Shown: positions 3,200-10,285, counted from the stretch's first letter. The stretch: 15,431 bases of DNA from Candidatus Mcinerneyibacteriota bacterium (GCA_016937175.1 JAFGWL010000007.1:1-15431); one strand, 5' to 3'. Numbers and translations are program-made. The notes: generated from the letters alone by a model not told the origin.

Positions 3200-3321
3200 A
3201 AGGAGAGGGGAGGAGCCTTTCATCCCTCCATGAGGACGCTTGTCAGCGGATAGGGCCTTTTGTCGGAAAAGAAGAGCACTTTCCGGTTTCAGCACGTATA
3301 GTTATTCAAAAGGAGGTTCTT

Positions 3322-4377
3322 ATGAACAAAATGTTATTTGTTATTGTCGCCGGGGCGCTTCTCTTTTCCTGTGCTCCCAAGACAGAGATGGTGACTGTGA
3401 AACCGGAAAAGATCGTAGCCCTGGAGAATATTAATCCTGCCGATAATATCGGGGAGATGTGCAGGGTCACAGAAGAGGGGATCATTCATTACCATAACAA
3501 AGCCGAAAAAGTGACCGTCTATAAGACCGGTTTTGACGGAAACCAGTCTGAGATCGTCCAGATCGCAAAAGGGAAGGGCCCCGGAGAAGTGAATTACCCC
3601 ATGGCCATGCGGTTGCGCGGAGACCGCTTCCTTATCTACGATATGATGATGAGAAAATCTGTTGAATACCGCATGGACGGCTCCTATATCGATGAGCAGC
3701 TGGTCCAGGGGGATGTGGGGTTTGCCCACTCCTTTGATGTGACCGGGGATAAACTCCTCTTTAACGGCAGCCTTCAGACGGAGCTGGCCATCGTGGACGA
3801 TCAGGGCCGGATTGAAAAGCTTATCAAGTATAAGAATGTCCAGATGATGCCCGATGACGGGACTCCCTTTCCCGGCGGGTGTGTCCGGTATAATGCCCAG
3901 ACCAACCGGATCGTAGTGGGTTATTATAATGCTCCGTACCGCCTTACCTTTTTCGATGAAAAGGGGGAGCAGATCATGGCAAAAGAGTATAAAATGGACA
4001 GAAAGGTACAGCCCTGCGTCTGGACCCTGGAGTTCGGCATGCCTTTCCCCAAAGGGGATATCATGGTCGGCGGCGGCGCCATGTACAAAAAGTGGTTTAT
4101 TTCTTCACCCGTGGGGGGATATGACATCAAAGACGGGGAGTTTGTCACCAACGAACACCCTCTGGAGTTCTACATCTTTGACACACTGACCGGGGAAAAG
4201 ATCCAGGTCGTTAAGATCGAAGGCCTGGATTCTCTGGATTCAGGAGTCGTCATCGGAGCTACAGACGATTATATTTTCTTCATAGCCACCGATGAAGCGC
4301 TGAAAGAAAAGTACAGACTCTCTTCAGACACAGCTCTTCTTCTCCTTTCCAATCCTCTGAAGGGGAGGGAGGATTAG
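3322..4377 (+). CDS. Lipoprotein with 6-bladed beta-propeller signature
   Basis: A 351-residue exported protein. The N-terminus MNKMLFVIVAGALLFSC has a short charged start, a hydrophobic core and a lipobox-like LLFSC, so Cys17 is the likely lipidated residue. The mature part has repeated strand-rich segments typical of a propeller. The stretch around residues 84-110, with GKGPGE followed by a Leu-Ile-Tyr-Asp segment and a Val-Glu-Tyr element, is characteristic of the '6-bladed beta-propeller' family that I know mainly from Bacteroidetes-like bacteria. AAAGGAGG (3309-3316) lies 5 bases before the ATG. The frame stays open upstream to 3196, but that part has no signal sequence and no start with a ribosome binding site. 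One base separates its stop from the next gene, and a histidine kinase and regulator follow, so it may bind a ligand or partner at the cell surface for them. That role is inference; no function is known. Confidence 0.7.
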   Translation: MNKMLFVIVAGALLFSCAPKTEMVTVKPEKIVALENINPADNIGEMCRVTEEGIIHYHNKAEKVTVYKTGFDGNQSEIVQIAKGKGPGEVNYPMAMRLRGDRFLIYDMMMRKSVEYRMDGSYIDEQLVQGDVGFAHSFDVTGDKLLFNGSLQTELAIVDDQGRIEKLIKYKNVQMMPDDGTPFPGGCVRYNAQTNRIVVGYYNAPYRLTFFDEKGEQIMAKEYKMDRKVQPCVWTLEFGMPFPKGDIMVGGGAMYKKWFISSPVGGYDIKDGEFVTNEHPLEFYIFDTLTGEKIQVVKIEGLDSLDSGVVIGATDDYIFFIATDEALKEKYRLSSDTALLLLSNPLKGRED

Positions 4378-4378
4378 G

Positions 4379-5053
4379 ATGAGACGGTTTGTCATCGTTA
4401 TCACAGCGCTTTTTATGACGATCTCTCTCCTTTCGGGAGAAGAGGTCATGAAACGGATAAACGAAGGGAAGGAGCTCTACAATGCAGCCGCCCGGGACGG
4501 AGAAAAGACCGACGCGGCCCTGGCCTACTATGAGGAACTGGCAAAAGAGTTTCCCGAAGACCCCTTTGTGAAGGCCTATCAGGGAAGTGTCTACACCCTC
4601 AAGGCCCGGGACGCCTCTTCCCCCCTCTCTAAGATGAACTGGGTGAGAAAGGCCAACAAGAGTTTTGACACAGCCGTGGAGACTCTCCCGGAAAATATCT
4701 TCCTTCGCATAGAGCGGGGACAGAACAGCCTTTACCTTCCCTCTTTTCTGGGCCGGTTCAAAGTCGCCGAAGAGGACTTTGCATTTTTGGCCCGTCAGAT
4801 GGATAAGATGAGTGATGAGGAGATCGTTCATACAAAAGGAGCTCTTCTTTTCAAGCGGCCTGACGACACAGGCAAGACCTTTGCCCTTCGGATAAGACAA
4901 TTCTGCTACTATTATGCCGGGCATGTGGCCCTGGAAAGAAAAGAGAATGCAAAAGCGGAAAAATTCTGGAAGAGGGCTGTTCAACTAGATCCTGAGACAA
5001 AGAACGGGCAGGCAGCCCGGGAAAGGCTCGAAAAGCTGCATGAGAGCAAGTAA
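4379..5053 (+). CDS. Exported TPR-repeat protein
   Basis: A 224-residue protein with an N-terminal signal sequence (MRRFVIVITALFMTISLLSG), probably cleaved by signal peptidase I near residue 20. No lipobox cysteine is present. The mature part is helical, with TPR-like units: one around residues 45-75 (ALAYYEELAKEFPEDPFVKA) and a clear one near the C-terminus (YYAGHVALERKENAKAEKFW, then AVQLDPE). TPR proteins are protein-binding scaffolds. It follows the propeller lipoprotein by one base and overlaps the histidine kinase start by 14 bases, so all are translated from one message. A periplasmic or surface adaptor between the lipoprotein and the kinase is an attractive but unproven guess. No enzymatic motif is visible. 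Confidence 0.7.
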   Translation: MRRFVIVITALFMTISLLSGEEVMKRINEGKELYNAAARDGEKTDAALAYYEELAKEFPEDPFVKAYQGSVYTLKARDASSPLSKMNWVRKANKSFDTAVETLPENIFLRIERGQNSLYLPSFLGRFKVAEEDFAFLARQMDKMSDEEIVHTKGALLFKRPDDTGKTFALRIRQFCYYYAGHVALERKENAKAEKFWKRAVQLDPETKNGQAARERLEKLHESK

Positions 5054-6101
5054 GTTTCTTTCGGTCCTGAAAGCCCTGGCGCAGACGGCGGTCATCAATC
5101 AGATGATCGCCGTCCTCATCGCCTTCTTTATCTCTTTGGGGGTGGGTTTTCAGAATTTCTGGCGGACGCTTCTGGTCTCGGCAATTATTTCCAACTGTAT
5201 CGGATTTGTCACTTCCCTGGCCTTTTCAGCCGTGGAGCTCTATTTTATCCGGTTTATGCACAAAAAGTGGGTCTCGCTTTTGTTGGGGATCATCTCGGCC
5301 TTTATCGGGACCGAGATCGCTATCCTCATCATCACGCAGTTCACTCATATTCCTTTTTACTCGGGATTCATGGGCCATTTTGTCATGATCGTCATGAACA
5401 CCATCATCGTCTCCATCGTCGTGCTCCTCCTGTATATCTACTACAAGATGCATTACACTATCGAGGGAAAAGAGCAGAAGATCGATTCCCTGGAGCTGAA
5501 ACATACCGAAGCCCAGCTCCATGCGTTACAATCGAAGCTCAACCCCCATTTTCTCTTCAACACCCTGAACATCATTACGGAACTGGTCTACAAGTCCCCT
5601 GAGAAGGTAGAGGAGATCGTCTTAAACCTCTCTGAGATCTACCGTTTCATCCTCTCCAAGAGCGATGAAAAGCTGATCCCCGTAAGAGAAGAGCTTGACA
5701 TCATCAGGAAATACTGTGCCATCGAGAAAGCGCGTATGGGAGAGCGGCTTCAGTATGAGATCACGTGTAAGAGTGATGCCCGGGACGCCCTTATCCCGCC
5801 GCTTCTTCTGGAAGTACTGGCTGAAAATGCCGTGATCCACGGGCTCAGCCCCAAAAAAGAGGGGGGAAGCCTGCAGATCCTGGTGGCCCGGAAAGGGGAC
5901 AAGGTCCTCTGTATGGTGGAAGATGACGGCGTAGGGTTCGGACAGGCGGACAAGAATGAGAGCTACGGCTTGAAAAGTGTCCGCTCGCGGCTACAATTAC
6001 AGTATGGAGGCCGGGCAGATTTTTCCATCGCTTCCAACCGGGGGGAAGGGTCCCTGATAACCGTGGAGATTCCGTATGAAGATGACCGCTCTCATCGTTG
6101 A
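5040..6101 (+). CDS. LytS/YehU-type membrane sensor histidine kinase
   Basis: A 353-residue kinase of the His_kinase (PF06580-type) class. Four hydrophobic segments lie at about 20-37, 43-66, 77-99 and 112-136, joined by short loops, with no PAS, GAF or sizeable external domain. A charged helical linker (about 140-165) leads to the phospho-acceptor motif LNPHFLFNTLN with His170. The ATPase domain follows, with the N-box LLEVLAENAVIHGL (Asn263) and G-box VEDDGVGFG (296-301), then SYGLKSVRSRL. Its ATG lies inside the end of the TPR gene with only a weak ribosome binding site, so translation is probably coupled. It overlaps the response regulator by 26 bases and is its obvious partner. The bare four-helix input suggests that it senses the membrane itself or depends on partner proteins such as the two upstream gene products. 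Confidence 0.92.
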   Translation: MRASKFLSVLKALAQTAVINQMIAVLIAFFISLGVGFQNFWRTLLVSAIISNCIGFVTSLAFSAVELYFIRFMHKKWVSLLLGIISAFIGTEIAILIITQFTHIPFYSGFMGHFVMIVMNTIIVSIVVLLLYIYYKMHYTIEGKEQKIDSLELKHTEAQLHALQSKLNPHFLFNTLNIITELVYKSPEKVEEIVLNLSEIYRFILSKSDEKLIPVREELDIIRKYCAIEKARMGERLQYEITCKSDARDALIPPLLLEVLAENAVIHGLSPKKEGGSLQILVARKGDKVLCMVEDDGVGFGQADKNESYGLKSVRSRLQLQYGGRADFSIASNRGEGSLITVEIPYEDDRSHR

Positions 6102-6825
6102 AGATGAAAAATTCGCCGCTGACAGGCTGGTGAAGATGCTTCAGAAGTATGACAATATTCAGGTGCTGGATGTGGCTGTAGACGGGGAAGAGGCTGTGGA
6201 GAAGACGGATGCGTTAGAGCCGGATATCCTCTTTCTGGATATTCAGATCCCCGTCTTCGACGGTTTTGAAGTCCTGCGGAGGGTGGCTCATCTCCCCTAT
6301 GTGGTCTTTGTGACGGCTTATGACACTTATGCCATCAAGGCCTTTGACGTAAACAGCGTGGATTATCTTCTCAAACCTATCCAACACGAGCGCCTGGACA
6401 AGACGGTTCAGAGGCTGGTCTCCCTTGTCCGGCCCGAGCAGAAGAACATTGAAAAGCTCCTGGCCATGGTAGCTGAAAAAGAGGCTGAAACGGTGGAGCG
6501 CCTTCCCATCAAAGTCAACGATGTGATCCAGTTTGTCCCTGTGGAGGATATCCTCTGGTGCTCGGCGGACAACAAGTATGTGACGGTGGTCACCGACAAG
6601 AAAGAATATCTCTACGATTACTCTCTCAAAAAATTGGAAGAGATCCTGCCTCAGAACCGTTTTATCCGGATCCACCGCTCCACCCTTGTGAACATCACCC
6701 GGATCCTCCGTCTGGAGCGTTTCTTTATGGGGGATTACACTGCCATCATGAGCGACAGCAAGGGAACGGCCCTTCCGGTGAGTAAGCGCTACTTCAAGCT
6801 GCTGAAAGACAAACTTCAGATGTAA
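6076..6825 (+). CDS. LytTR-family response regulator
   Basis: A 249-residue two-domain regulator. The receiver domain (1-120) has the acidic pair Glu9/Asp10, the phosphorylated Asp55 in LFLDIQIP, Thr80 in VFVTAY and Lys100 in YLLKPI. The output domain (about 140-245) is a LytTR DNA-binding domain: IKVNDVIQFVPVEDILWCSA, YVTVVTD, then NRFIRIHRSTLVN and the C-terminal LPVSKRYFKLLKDKL. LytTR regulators bind paired short direct repeats upstream of target promoters, commonly controlling cell-envelope, secretion or transport genes. ATG 6076 is preferred because GGAG (6065-6068) sits 7 bases upstream; ATG 6082 is possible. The targets are unknown. The neighbouring strong gntP promoter or its own operon are candidates by position only. 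Confidence 0.93.
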   Translation: MKMTALIVEDEKFAADRLVKMLQKYDNIQVLDVAVDGEEAVEKTDALEPDILFLDIQIPVFDGFEVLRRVAHLPYVVFVTAYDTYAIKAFDVNSVDYLLKPIQHERLDKTVQRLVSLVRPEQKNIEKLLAMVAEKEAETVERLPIKVNDVIQFVPVEDILWCSADNKYVTVVTDKKEYLYDYSLKKLEEILPQNRFIRIHRSTLVNITRILRLERFFMGDYTAIMSDSKGTALPVSKRYFKLLKDKLQM

Positions 6826-6850: not shown

Positions 6851-6880
6851 TTTACACATCTCACCGAACTTCCTTATAAT
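6851..6880 (+). promoter_or_regulatory. Strong sigma70-like promoter of the gntP operon
   Basis: TTTACA (6851-6856) and a perfect TATAAT (6875-6880) are separated by 18 bases. An A-tract (6841-6849) directly upstream resembles an UP element. Transcription should start near 6887, just before the AAGGAGGT ribosome binding site (6893-6900). The permease block can therefore be expressed independently of the two-component genes. Confidence 0.75.
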
Positions 6881-6905: not shown

Positions 6906-8237
6906 ATGGTATCAGGCGGTTTAGCAGTTATCTATCTGATTGTTGCGATTCTACTGATCATCTTTCTGACATCCCGATTTCGCATGAACGCGTTCATTGT
7001 GCTGCTGGTAATCTCTTTCCTCTATGGGCTGGCTGTCCGTCTCCCCCTGGGAAAGATCATTGAGAATATCCGCAGCGGGTTTGGCGGTACCCTGGGTTAT
7101 ATCGGGATCGTCATCGTTGCCGGGACCATTATCGGGACGATTTTGGAAAAGACCGGCGGAGCCCTCTCCATGACCAATGCCATTCTTAAACTCGTGGGAA
7201 GCAAGCGCTCCCCCCTGGCCATGAGTATCGCCGGGTATGTGGTCTCCATCCCGGTCTTTTGTGACTCGGGGTATGTCATCCTGACCCCTCTCAACAAAGC
7301 GCTGGCCAAGAAGACCGACAAATCCATGGCCGTGATGGCCGTGGCTTTGGCCACAGGCCTTTATGCTACCCACTGTCTTGTCCCGCCGACTCCCGGCCCC
7401 ATCGCTGCTGCGGGGATCCTGGGCGCTGACCTGGGCATGGTCATCGGGCTGGGGCTTATCGTCTCTATCCCTGCCATGATCGCAGGCTATCTGTGGGCTG
7501 TTCTCTTTGCTAAAAAATATGACATCAAACCTGTCCTGGAAGAAAGTTATGACTCTCTTATGAAGAAGTACGGCAAACTTCCTTCTGCCTGGCTCTCCTT
7601 CATACCGCTTCTTATCCCCATTCTGCTCATTTTGCTCAAATCTCTGTCCAATCCGCGGCTGAATGTCATCCCTCCGGGGAAATGGGCCGACTTCTTCAAC
7701 TTCATCGGCGACCCGGTGACAGCGCTTCTCATCGGTGTCTTTCTCAGTCTCTTTTTAGTCAAAAAGGAGATGCTGGGGGAGGCCGTCCACGGCTGGATGG
7801 CCGACGGGATAAAAAATGCTGCGATCATCCTGGCCATCACCGGTGCTGGCGGAGCCTTCGGAGCCATCCTCAAGAGTTCTCCCATGGGAGATTTTCTGGG
7901 GAACACCATGTCCGGCTGGAACCTGGGAATCTTTCTGCCCTTCATCATAGCTGCTGCCCTGAAGACAGCCCAGGGATCGTCTACCGTGGCCATCATCACC
8001 ACATCTTCCATCATGGCCCCTCTTATGGGCACACTGGGACTGAGCCCGGCCCTGGCAGTTCTGGCCATCGGCGCCGGGGCTATGACGGTGTCCCATGCCA
8101 ACGATTCCTATTTCTGGGTCGTCTCTCAGTTTTCAGACATGGAGGTGCCTGTGGCCTACAGGACCTACACGACCGCCACGCTTCTCGAGGGGCTTGTCTC
8201 CATCATCATCGTGGCCCTGTTGAGCCTCTTTTTTTAA
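6906..8237 (+). CDS. GntP-family gluconate/sugar-acid permease
   Basis: A 443-residue, highly hydrophobic protein with about 12-14 membrane segments, the usual GntP length. Recognisable family segments are FGGTLGYIGIVIVAGTIIG, LEKTGGA, SIPVFCDSGYVIL, ATHCLVPPTPGPIAAAGILG, and near the end KTAQGSSTVAIITTSSIMAP and GAGAMTVSHANDSYFWVVSQF. GntP proteins import gluconate and related acids (glycerate, D-serine, fructuronate, beta-hydroxy acids) by proton symport. AAGGAGGT lies 5 bases before the ATG, behind a strong promoter. The operon also encodes a glycerate 2-kinase two genes downstream, so glycerate or an acid degraded to glycerate is the most likely substrate here. No gluconate kinase, dehydratase or aldolase gene is visible in the window. 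Confidence 0.93.
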   Translation: MVSGGLAVIYLIVAILLIIFLTSRFRMNAFIVLLVISFLYGLAVRLPLGKIIENIRSGFGGTLGYIGIVIVAGTIIGTILEKTGGALSMTNAILKLVGSKRSPLAMSIAGYVVSIPVFCDSGYVILTPLNKALAKKTDKSMAVMAVALATGLYATHCLVPPTPGPIAAAGILGADLGMVIGLGLIVSIPAMIAGYLWAVLFAKKYDIKPVLEESYDSLMKKYGKLPSAWLSFIPLLIPILLILLKSLSNPRLNVIPPGKWADFFNFIGDPVTALLIGVFLSLFLVKKEMLGEAVHGWMADGIKNAAIILAITGAGGAFGAILKSSPMGDFLGNTMSGWNLGIFLPFIIAAALKTAQGSSTVAIITTSSIMAPLMGTLGLSPALAVLAIGAGAMTVSHANDSYFWVVSQFSDMEVPVAYRTYTTATLLEGLVSIIIVALLSLFF

Positions 8238-8243
8238 GTAGTT

Positions 8244-8262
8244 CGGGGGGCTTTGCCCCCCT
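8244..8262. repeat. Perfect G/C hairpin between gntP and the TPR gene
   Basis: GGGGGGC (8245-8251), loop TTT and GCCCCCC (8255-8261) form a perfect 7-bp hairpin seven bases after the gntP stop. No U-run follows, so it is not a standard intrinsic terminator. It may stabilise the upstream 3' end, lower downstream expression, or be one copy of a dispersed small palindrome. Confidence 0.6.
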
Positions 8263-8280
8263 CAAAGCAAGGAAGGGATC

Positions 8281-8928
8281 ATGTTTAAACGTTTGAAATC
8301 AGCCCTCTGCAGGCGGAGGGCTCTTAATGCCTTTGTTTCGGGAGATTTTTCAGAAGCCCACAATCTTTTTTTAAAGCTTCGGGAACTCTCCTCCGGAGAG
8401 AAGGGGATCAGCTATAACCTGGGACTTACGTCGATGGCTCTGGGCCGTTTTGAAGAGGCTGAACGCTATCTCCTGGATGCCGAATCGGAACAGAACCGGC
8501 CGGAAGTCAATAATCTCCTGGCGGAGCTCTATTACTTTTGGGGGAAAGGCGCACTGGCTTCATCACGGTATAGAAACTGGGATGAAAACCGGAGCCCTCT
8601 CAAACCCGGGCTCGTCGAGCAGAGGATGGAGCACTGTCTCTCACCGGACAAGATGAAGATGGCAGCTGAATCCTACACAGCTCTGGAAAAGGGGAGTGAA
8701 GCTATGCAGAAAAGGTCCTTTGAGGAAGCTCTCTCCCATCTCCAAGAAGCTGTGGAAAAAGACGGGACCAACTATGTGGCCTGGAATAATCTCGGAACCC
8801 TCTATCTGAACCAACTGCATAAAAAGGAGAAAGCCCTGAACTGTTTTAATAAGGCCTTCGCCCTGGCGGATACCCCTTTGATAAGACGGAACCTGGCTAA
8901 AGCCGGGGAGGCACATAAGGAGGAGTAG
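8281..8928 (+). CDS. Cytosolic TPR-repeat protein of unknown role
   Basis: A 215-residue protein without a signal sequence, starting MFKRLKSALCRRRALNAFVS. Helical TPR units are seen at about 16-75 (SGDFSEAHNLFLKLRELSS, then YNLGLTSMALGRFEEAERYL) and again at about 140-200, including NYVAWNNLGTLYLNQ and EKALNCFNKAFALADTPLIR. Between them, residues 76-135 are less regular. The ribosome binding site is AAGGAAGG (8269-8276), and the gene ends one base before the glycerate kinase ATG, so the two are co-translated. TPR proteins mediate protein contacts; no catalytic motif is present. Its place between a permease and a kinase is unusual and offers no clear role. It is not obviously a close copy of the exported TPR protein at 4379-5053. 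Confidence 0.65.
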   Translation: MFKRLKSALCRRRALNAFVSGDFSEAHNLFLKLRELSSGEKGISYNLGLTSMALGRFEEAERYLLDAESEQNRPEVNNLLAELYYFWGKGALASSRYRNWDENRSPLKPGLVEQRMEHCLSPDKMKMAAESYTALEKGSEAMQKRSFEEALSHLQEAVEKDGTNYVAWNNLGTLYLNQLHKKEKALNCFNKAFALADTPLIRRNLAKAGEAHKEE

Positions 8929-8929
8929 T

Positions 8930-10285
8930 ATGGATCCCATGAAGGATCTGAAAGAGATCTTTCTGGCAGGGGTAGACCGGGCCGACCCGGAAAAGATGAT
9001 CACACGCACGATCTCCCTTTCAAAGGAGACCTTGCGTATCGAGACTCTGCAGGGGCCTCTCGTCTACTCTCTGTCTGACTACAAAAGGATCACAGTCCTG
9101 GGAGCCGGGAAAGCCGCTTTCCCTATGGCTTCTGCGATGGAAAAGATCCTGGGAGAACGGATCACCCGGGGAAAGGTCGTGACCAAATACGGCTTTTCCG
9201 GAAAACTGGACCATATCGAGGTCCTGGAAGCGGGCCACCCCATCCCGGATGAAGCCAGCCTCAGGGCCGCACAGGAGATCGGAGAGCTGGCAGACGAAGC
9301 TGACGAGTCTACCCTGGTCATCGTCCTCATCTCAGGAGGAGGGTCGTCACTCCTGGCTTCCCCTGCCGATTTCGGGGACGAGCCACTTACCCTTACAGAC
9401 AAACAGGCTGCCACAAAACTCCTTCTGGAGAGCGGCGCTACCATCAACGAGATCAACTGTATCCGGAAACACTGCTCATCCATCAAAGGAGGCCGCCTGG
9501 CCCGGAGGATCTTTCCCGCAGCTTTTGTCACTCTTATCCTCTCTGACGTGGTCGGGGACAATCTCAATGCCATCGCTTCGGGACCCACGGTGGGTGACAG
9601 CACCACCTACGGGGATGCTCTCGGGATCGTCCGGCGGTATGCCCTTGAAGAGCGTCTTCCCGCATCCATCCTCTCTCTTTTGAAAAAGGGAGAAGCCGGA
9701 GAGGCAGAAGAGACCCCTGAGCCGGGAAGTCCCGTCTTTGAAAAAGGACACAATATCCTTTTGGGAACGAACCTTGCAAGTCTGGAAGCGTGCCGCGACA
9801 AAGCGCTTCAGCTGGGTTATGACACTCTCATCCTTTCCCCCCGTATCACAGGTGAAGCCAGAGAAGCCGCCCGCTTCTATTTCGGCCTGGCCCGGGGTGT
9901 ACAGGAGCATGGGCTGTTGGGGAAAGCGCCCTTCTGCCTCATTGCCGGGGGAGAGACCACGGTGACCTTAAAAGGAAAGGGAAAGGGGGGGAGGAACCAG
10001 GAGATGGCCCTGGCTTTTCTTGAAGAATTGCGCAAGGAGGGCATAGACAATAGAAACCTCTTTTTCCTGGCAGCCTCTACAGATGGCAACGACGGCCCCA
10101 CCGATGCCGCGGGGGCTTATGCCTCATGGGAGATCTACCTACGCTCACGTGAGAAGGGGATCTCGTCTGAACGTTTTCTCGAGGAGAACGACTCCTATCA
10201 CTTTTTTGAACGTTGCGAAGGCCTTCTGAAGACAGGAGCTACCCGGACCAATGTCTGCGACATCCAGATTTTTATTGTCACATGA
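8930..10285 (+). CDS. Glycerate 2-kinase, MOFRL/GckA type
   Basis: A 451-residue protein of the MOFRL glycerate kinase family, which phosphorylates D-glycerate to 2-phosphoglycerate with ATP, feeding lower glycolysis. The N-terminal domain has the VLGAGKAAFPMA motif, GHPIPDEAS, and ISGGGSSLL with the Gly-rich loop at 136-140. LSDVVGDNLNAIASGPTVGD follows. The C-terminal MOFRL domain has GGETTVTLKGKGKGGRNQE (GRNQE at 354-358) and STDGNDGPTDAAGA, with Asp385 and Asp388 in the conserved DG-x-DG pattern. All expected motifs are intact and the length is normal. AAGGAGG lies 7 bases before the ATG at 8930; an ATG three codons later is less likely. With the GntP permease in the same operon it supports a glycerate or sugar-acid utilisation unit. 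Names in use include gckA, ttuD and garK for different families, so I give no symbol. Confidence 0.9.
   Translation: MDPMKDLKEIFLAGVDRADPEKMITRTISLSKETLRIETLQGPLVYSLSDYKRITVLGAGKAAFPMASAMEKILGERITRGKVVTKYGFSGKLDHIEVLEAGHPIPDEASLRAAQEIGELADEADESTLVIVLISGGGSSLLASPADFGDEPLTLTDKQAATKLLLESGATINEINCIRKHCSSIKGGRLARRIFPAAFVTLILSDVVGDNLNAIASGPTVGDSTTYGDALGIVRRYALEERLPASILSLLKKGEAGEAEETPEPGSPVFEKGHNILLGTNLASLEACRDKALQLGYDTLILSPRITGEAREAARFYFGLARGVQEHGLLGKAPFCLIAGGETTVTLKGKGKGGRNQEMALAFLEELRKEGIDNRNLFFLAASTDGNDGPTDAAGAYASWEIYLRSREKGISSERFLEENDSYHFFERCEGLLKTGATRTNVCDIQIFIVT

Follow-up and report, generated by a model that had tools for sequence, protein, structure and literature searches.

An exported TPR protein as candidate input subunit of a four-helix LytS-type kinase in a Candidatus Mcinerneyibacteriota operon

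A stretch of 15,431 nucleotides from a Candidatus Mcinerneyibacteriota bacterium (GCA_016937175.1 JAFGWL010000007.1:1-15431; hereafter the window) carries, at 3322-6825 on the plus strand, four consecutive genes encoding a propeller lipoprotein, an exported tetratricopeptide repeat (TPR) protein, a PF06580 (LytS-type) histidine kinase and a LytTR response regulator. The core of this arrangement, namely the exported TPR protein, the PF06580 kinase and the LytTR regulator, recurs in two phyla as judged by sequence comparison. On a modest balance of probability, the unit is best read as an autoregulated two-component operon resembling AlgZ/AlgR, in which the TPR protein is a split extracytoplasmic input subunit of the kinase and the propeller lipoprotein was added as either input or output. 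Support at the level of sequence comes from the gene order and overlaps, TPR-kinase fusions, recurrent TPR-kinase-regulator sets and a conserved candidate operator. An earlier, sequence-only reading of the same DNA had proposed a signalling unit with both exported proteins as its sensor; the unit and the TPR partner are supported, and the propeller as part of the sensor is not.

The four genes are separated by a gap of 1 base (lipoprotein-TPR) and by overlaps of 14 bases (TPR-kinase) and 26 bases (kinase-regulator), a layout that had been described correctly, with all four open reading frames lying on the plus strand where Table 1 places them. Shine-Dalgarno-like sequences can be read 5' of the starts of the lipoprotein (AAAGGAGG), TPR (GGGAGG) and regulator (GGAG) genes. 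The overlapping genes imply co-expression of the unit, which most likely ends at the regulator; a search for known RNA elements in the window found none. The view of these genes as one signalling unit is supported by the recurrence of TPR-kinase-regulator sets and by a conserved candidate operator of LytTR type that precedes the operon. The window corresponds to a single contig of a genome of 1.88 Mb (G000), whose only close relatives in the genome collection are G001, a sister species of the same genus, and G002, a member of the same order; L-numbers denote fetched loci that were compared with the window.

The TPR protein has an N-terminal signal-like segment, weak TPR matches (Pfam) and a family motif consisting of a conserved R..RG...L.LP followed by DF. 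A profile built from two sequences located this family in 13 genomes outside the genus (386 genomes searched), and a clear member is found in one of 80 named PF06580 loci counted in six reading frames. This locus, L031 from Acidobacteria, presents the TPR gene (E 7e-18; six-frame search) directly upstream of a PF06580 kinase gene, with that of a LytTR regulator after it. Across the Acidobacteriota, the family occurs in 43 of the 396 genomes searched, and in 6 of 20 TPR-family loci read (L031 being additional) the fetched stretch encodes both a PF06580 kinase and a LytTR regulator; the chance expectation of about 1 in 20 loci rests on an assumed, not measured, 20 such kinases per 4.5 Mb genome. 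The three genes stand in a row in L207; TPR and kinase are fused in one open reading frame, followed by the regulator, in L202 and L205; and other orders are seen in L200, L209 and L219. If a TPR-LytS-LytTR set is taken to mean a PF06580 kinase that has a member of this TPR family next to it or fused to it, together with a LytTR regulator, then L031, L200, L202, L205, L207, L209 and L219 each hold one. The signal-like segment and TPR part of the L202 fusion precede its membrane helices, and the TPR part should therefore face outside the cytoplasm. The proposal of the TPR protein as a partner of the kinase thus gains support from another phylum, where its family recurs next to PF06580 kinases and LytTR regulators and is fused to the kinase in two loci; the TPR protein is the strongest candidate for the role of input subunit. 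The co-occurrence check of the exported genes beside PF06580 kinases was positive for the TPR family in Acidobacteriota and negative for it in the other phyla sampled; for the lipoprotein it was negative.

Among the loci compared, L200 encodes the best match outside the genus for each of the three proteins: a bare four-helix kinase of 345 residues (33% identity over its full length), a TPR protein of 197 residues (37%) and a LytTR regulator (39%). Taken on its own, the membrane part of the window kinase matches the L200 kinase with an E value of 1.6e-9. There, the TPR gene belongs to the operon of the kinase and the regulator gene is convergent and separate. The L200 kinase gene stands in a row with genes that encode an ABC ATPase, an FtsX-type permease, a LolA-like protein, a barrel-like protein, an Omp85 protein and the TPR protein, which suggests a possible link of the kinase system to envelope traffic. 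Members of the TPR family are found together with FtsX-type ABC transporters and LolA-like proteins (PF17131) in L133, L139, L140, L142, L200/L220 and L201, and other members lie beside crtI/crtB-like carotenoid genes (L134, L135, L141, L203 and L206). The kinase-linked TPR proteins of L031 (3798-4670) and L207 (4518-5342) carry, close to their C-terminal ends, a CxxCH motif (NCATCHRE, GCHSCH) of the kind found in c-type haem sites, which raises the possibility of a haem-bearing input domain; the motif is absent from the window TPR protein.

The kinase displays the features of the LytS type, with a PF06580 domain (E 3e-26, 91.9 bits; Pfam) bearing the His in a PHFLFN motif, the P, H, F and N of which are invariant in 13 relatives, and an HATPase domain (PF02518) scored at 28.1 bits, above cut-off, in the genome search and at 25.8, just below cut-off, in hmmscan. 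Hydropathy places four membrane segments in residues 13-135, with outside connections of approximately 6 and 12 residues, in agreement with the four helices and near absence of an external region first described; the structure model has helices matching these segments, its membrane part being of low confidence. The Pfam scan gave no match to 5TMR_LYT (PF07694) in the kinase, which has four membrane segments rather than five or more and falls outside the LytS family in the strict sense, typified by a 5TMR_LYT input. AlgZ has four predicted helices within its first 150 residues (PMC4064291), and a bare four-helix domain on a PF06580 kinase, as read here from hydropathy and the model, is not unusual. 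The premise that a kinase lacking an external region cannot sense alone fails, as the membrane helices of BtsS from Escherichia coli form a cavity in which pyruvate is bound (PMC10653868), so that ligand sensing is compatible with a short external part.

The regulator is composed of a receiver domain (PF00072, E 4e-20) and a LytTR DNA-binding domain (PF04397, E 3e-28; Pfam), and its best NCBIfam match is BtsR, below the cut-off of that model. A second LytTR protein is encoded in both species of the genus (L018:5173-5913 and L022:4706-5437); the G000 copy has a receiver-like region with a Ser at the usual place of the phospho-Asp (FMSL), making it a possible pseudo-receiver regulator.

LytTR regulators related to AlgR bind imperfect direct repeats about 12 bp apart, the AlgR sites being CCGTTCGTC and CCGTTTGTC (PMC4064291). 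Outside a 30-base block (23/30 identities, ungapped; 0/500 shuffles as good), the operon leaders of G000 and G001 have diverged. Within the block lie two CGTTTGTC-like sequences at a spacing of 20 bases: CGCTTGTC and CTTTTGTC in G000, and CGTTTGTC twice in G001. The half-site of this candidate operator equals the AlgR sites, and two apparent copies of the CCGTTYGTC half-site of AlgZ/AlgR-like operators can be read in it, with one mismatch each. Exact matches to the joint pattern occur only in the G000 and G001 leaders among the three genomes searched, and a genome-wide search for further targets at up to 2 mismatches returned matches at control level only. The same tandem site is found upstream of the L207 TPR-kinase-regulator genes (period 20) and of a kinase-regulator pair from Lacibacter (L045; period 21). 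The operon likely carries a LytTR operator, conserved in G001. A good -35 hexamer was not seen in the leader, which would be in keeping with an activator-dependent promoter.

The sister species retains the lipoprotein (79% identity, among the best of the neighbouring genes) and the TPR protein (51%) in the same order and with the same 1-base gap, so the arrangement is more than chance. The kinase, the regulator and the GntP permease encoded downstream of them were not found in the G001 assembly. Their loss was considered and rejected, as contig C57 breaks off inside the TPR gene and contig C26 inside the gene for glycerate kinase, which in G000 lies downstream of the unit; contig ends within both genes flanking the missing block are better explained by an assembly gap, into which the G001 kinase and regulator genes probably fall.

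In the favoured reading, the kinase, with its bare four-helix membrane domain and PF06580 domain, would work with the exported TPR protein as a split input subunit, the same pair being fused in relatives. A stimulus in the envelope would alter the contact between TPR protein and kinase, the kinase would phosphorylate the LytTR regulator, and the regulator would bind the tandem site and drive the operon, whereby lipoprotein, TPR protein, kinase and regulator would be made together, with the lipoprotein, a lineage-specific addition to this core, serving as a second envelope partner or as an output. Protein contact, the direction of signalling, the stimulus and autoactivation of the operon are the steps that we infer. 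Several observations weigh against this scheme. No PF06580 kinase was found in the TPR-family neighbourhoods read outside the Acidobacteriota, several of which instead contain ABC/FtsX-LolA-like or carotenoid genes, and the family is thus not kinase-specific. The search of the Acidobacteriota was not blind, as the alignment behind its profile (A6) included the kinase-linked L031 protein. Each half of the window operator differs from CGTTTGTC at one base, the G001 halves being perfect 8-mers, and the kinase-regulator end of the operon cannot be read in G001, where the contig ends.

An alternative of some substance, although we consider it rather unlikely, is that the exported proteins are outputs: the four-helix kinase would sense a small ligand or the state of the membrane in its own helices, as BtsS does with pyruvate (PMC10653868), and the regulator would raise expression of the lipoprotein and TPR genes, which stand at the head of its operon. 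This is consistent with the position of the only strong operator in the genome ahead of these two genes, with the abundance of propeller and TPR relatives that lack kinases, and with the LytTR genes of G002 that also precede propeller cassettes. The TPR-kinase fusion in two loci argues instead for direct action on the kinase, as does the placement of the L200 TPR gene in the operon of the kinase while the regulator is convergent and separate.

The AlphaFold model of the lipoprotein is a six-bladed NHL-type propeller (mean predicted local distance difference test score, pLDDT, 92.4) whose best structural match is the NHL domain of Brat (VIA-align Z 22.6 over 263 residues), the top matches being NHL domains. 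In an alignment of 22 sequences, comprising the window copy and 21 relatives, the lipobox Cys17 is at least 90% conserved and a GkGPGE motif is common to all. The lipobox, six-bladed NHL-type propeller and GkGPGE motif are shared with the PF17170 propeller lipoproteins, a family matched by 6 of the 22, but the window protein itself has no match in the Pfam scan. The propeller family numbers 18 members in G000, 13 in G001 and 18 in G002, and radical SAM and ABC exporter genes accompany several of the relatives.

The sequence-only reading in its full form, with lipoprotein and TPR protein together constituting the receptor of the bare kinase and relaying a surface signal inward, is improbable. 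That the lipoprotein and TPR genes are the first of one overlapping operon, with order, gap and a well-conserved lipoprotein kept in G001, speaks for a joint receptor, and MtrAB-LpqB provides a precedent for an accessory lipoprotein (PMC3353115). However, the window copy is the only one of the 18 G000 propellers to adjoin a PF06580 kinase, no other was found to do so in G001 or G002, and none is found in the 80 PF06580 neighbourhoods examined or beside the TPR-linked kinases of Acidobacteriota. One other propeller lipoprotein gene does stand in a row with those of a periplasmic binding protein and a dCache hybrid kinase (L012:627-5490, minus strand, G000 C6), but the equivalent G001 operon (L151) is the same without the propeller, and this link was rejected as not conserved. 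The propeller lipoprotein looks like a lineage-specific addition to the core, made in this genus, whether as input or output.

On four short contigs of G002 (L026, L153, L154 and L155), closely related LytTR genes at one end accompany differing radical SAM and/or ABC exporter genes and a propeller lipoprotein gene, a repeated cassette that resembles peptide-modification loci. These cassettes were rejected as independent support: they represent few events, with LytTR parts that are near copies of one another (94-97% identity) on three of the four contigs, and a search of these contigs found no PF06580 partner. Elsewhere in G002, a cyclic-nucleotide-binding domain is fused to a LytTR domain near a propeller gene (L028:4593-5447).

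Comparison with known systems shows that the statement of no described system with this composition was too strong, given the accessory lipoprotein of MtrAB-LpqB and the TPR-fused PF06580 kinases of Bacteroidota. AlgZ (FimS)/AlgR of Pseudomonas aeruginosa shares the four predicted N-terminal kinase helices, the LytTR-type regulator and the half-sites, but no TPR or propeller partner is mentioned in the passages of PMC4064291 consulted, many AlgR sites depart from the arrangement as direct repeats at 12 bp, and its regulon is another. BtsS/BtsR and YpdA/YpdB of E. coli (PMC10653868, PMC5552118) likewise pair a LytS-type kinase with a LytTR regulator and take input through the membrane, although BtsS is built from seven helices together with 5TMR_LYT and GAF domains, all of them absent from the window kinase. 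In MtrA-MtrB-LpqB of actinobacteria (PMC3353115, PMC5845573), the gene of an accessory lipoprotein adjoins those of a two-component system, yet LpqB is reported to touch the extracellular domain of MtrB; the window kinase has no such domain on which a lipoprotein could act, there is no TPR partner in that system, and the Pfam scan found no LpqB match in the window proteins. The Bacteroidota kinases (e.g. L042, L095) place a TPR region ahead of PF06580, but in a single protein with canonical TPR_12 repeats, whereas the window TPR is a separate protein of a divergent TPR family. In the open literature, no description was found of a system joining TPR, LytTR, a histidine kinase and a periplasmic partner, and nothing usable was found on propeller/radical SAM, LpqB/propeller or intramembrane-sensing kinases.

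Table 1. Features of the four-gene unit and its flanks, in window coordinates
Feature	Position	Strand	Basis
Candidate LytTR operator: CGCTTGTC, 12 bases, CTTTTGTC, period 20	3237-3264	+	Leader conservation; upstream of -10-like box
-10-like box TATAGT (TATAAT in G001)	3297-3302	+	Sequence and leader alignment
Six-bladed NHL-type beta-propeller lipoprotein	3322-4377	+	Lipobox; AlphaFold fold; 79% identity in G001; 18-copy family
Exported TPR protein, candidate extracytoplasmic input subunit	4379-5053	+	N-terminal signal-like segment; TPR matches; family motif; kinase linkage/fusion elsewhere
PF06580 (LytS-type) histidine kinase, bare four-helix membrane domain	5040-6101	+	Pfam; hydropathy; model; L200 match
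LytTR response regulator	6076-6825	+	PF00072 and PF04397; L200 match
Sigma-70-like promoter of GntP permease gene; downstream unit boundary	6851-6880	+	11/12 consensus matches

It is highly improbable that the kinase-regulator pair acts in carboxylate uptake on behalf of the GntP permease and glycerate kinase encoded downstream, as BtsSR does for a pyruvate carrier, with the lipoprotein-TPR pair an unrelated neighbour: GntP does follow directly, E. coli LytS/LytTR systems control pyruvate carriers (PMC5552118, PMC10653868) and kinase, regulator and GntP are missing together from G001, but this joint absence fits an assembly gap, no LytTR site pair lies in the 80-base gap before GntP, which has its own promoter-like sequence, and in G002 the genes for GntP (76% identity), a TPR protein and the start of glycerate kinase stand in a row with no regulator beside them. 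Control of GntP by the pair was accordingly rejected. The genes for the GntP permease, a TPR protein and a MOFRL glycerate kinase (window 6906-10285 and L030) likely form an operon for glycerate uptake that is also conserved in G002, and a strong promoter-like sequence precedes it at 6851-6880.

In many LytS-type kinases the input is short, confined to the membrane and of unknown signal, and a recurrent exported TPR partner, whether fused or separate, is a concrete candidate for the means by which these kinases sense the envelope. Because the TPR family shares loci with FtsX-type ABC, LolA-like and Omp85 genes, a broader suggestion, tentative and on the unlikely side, is of an undescribed envelope-monitoring class, spanning at least two phyla, in which an exported TPR protein, split or fused, would be the receptor for PF06580 kinases and report on lipoprotein or outer-membrane traffic, the propeller extending the receptor towards the outer membrane in this lineage. 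The shared operator makes target promoters predictable across phyla, and the likely core of TPR protein, kinase and regulator is set apart from a lineage-specific accessory, the propeller lipoprotein.

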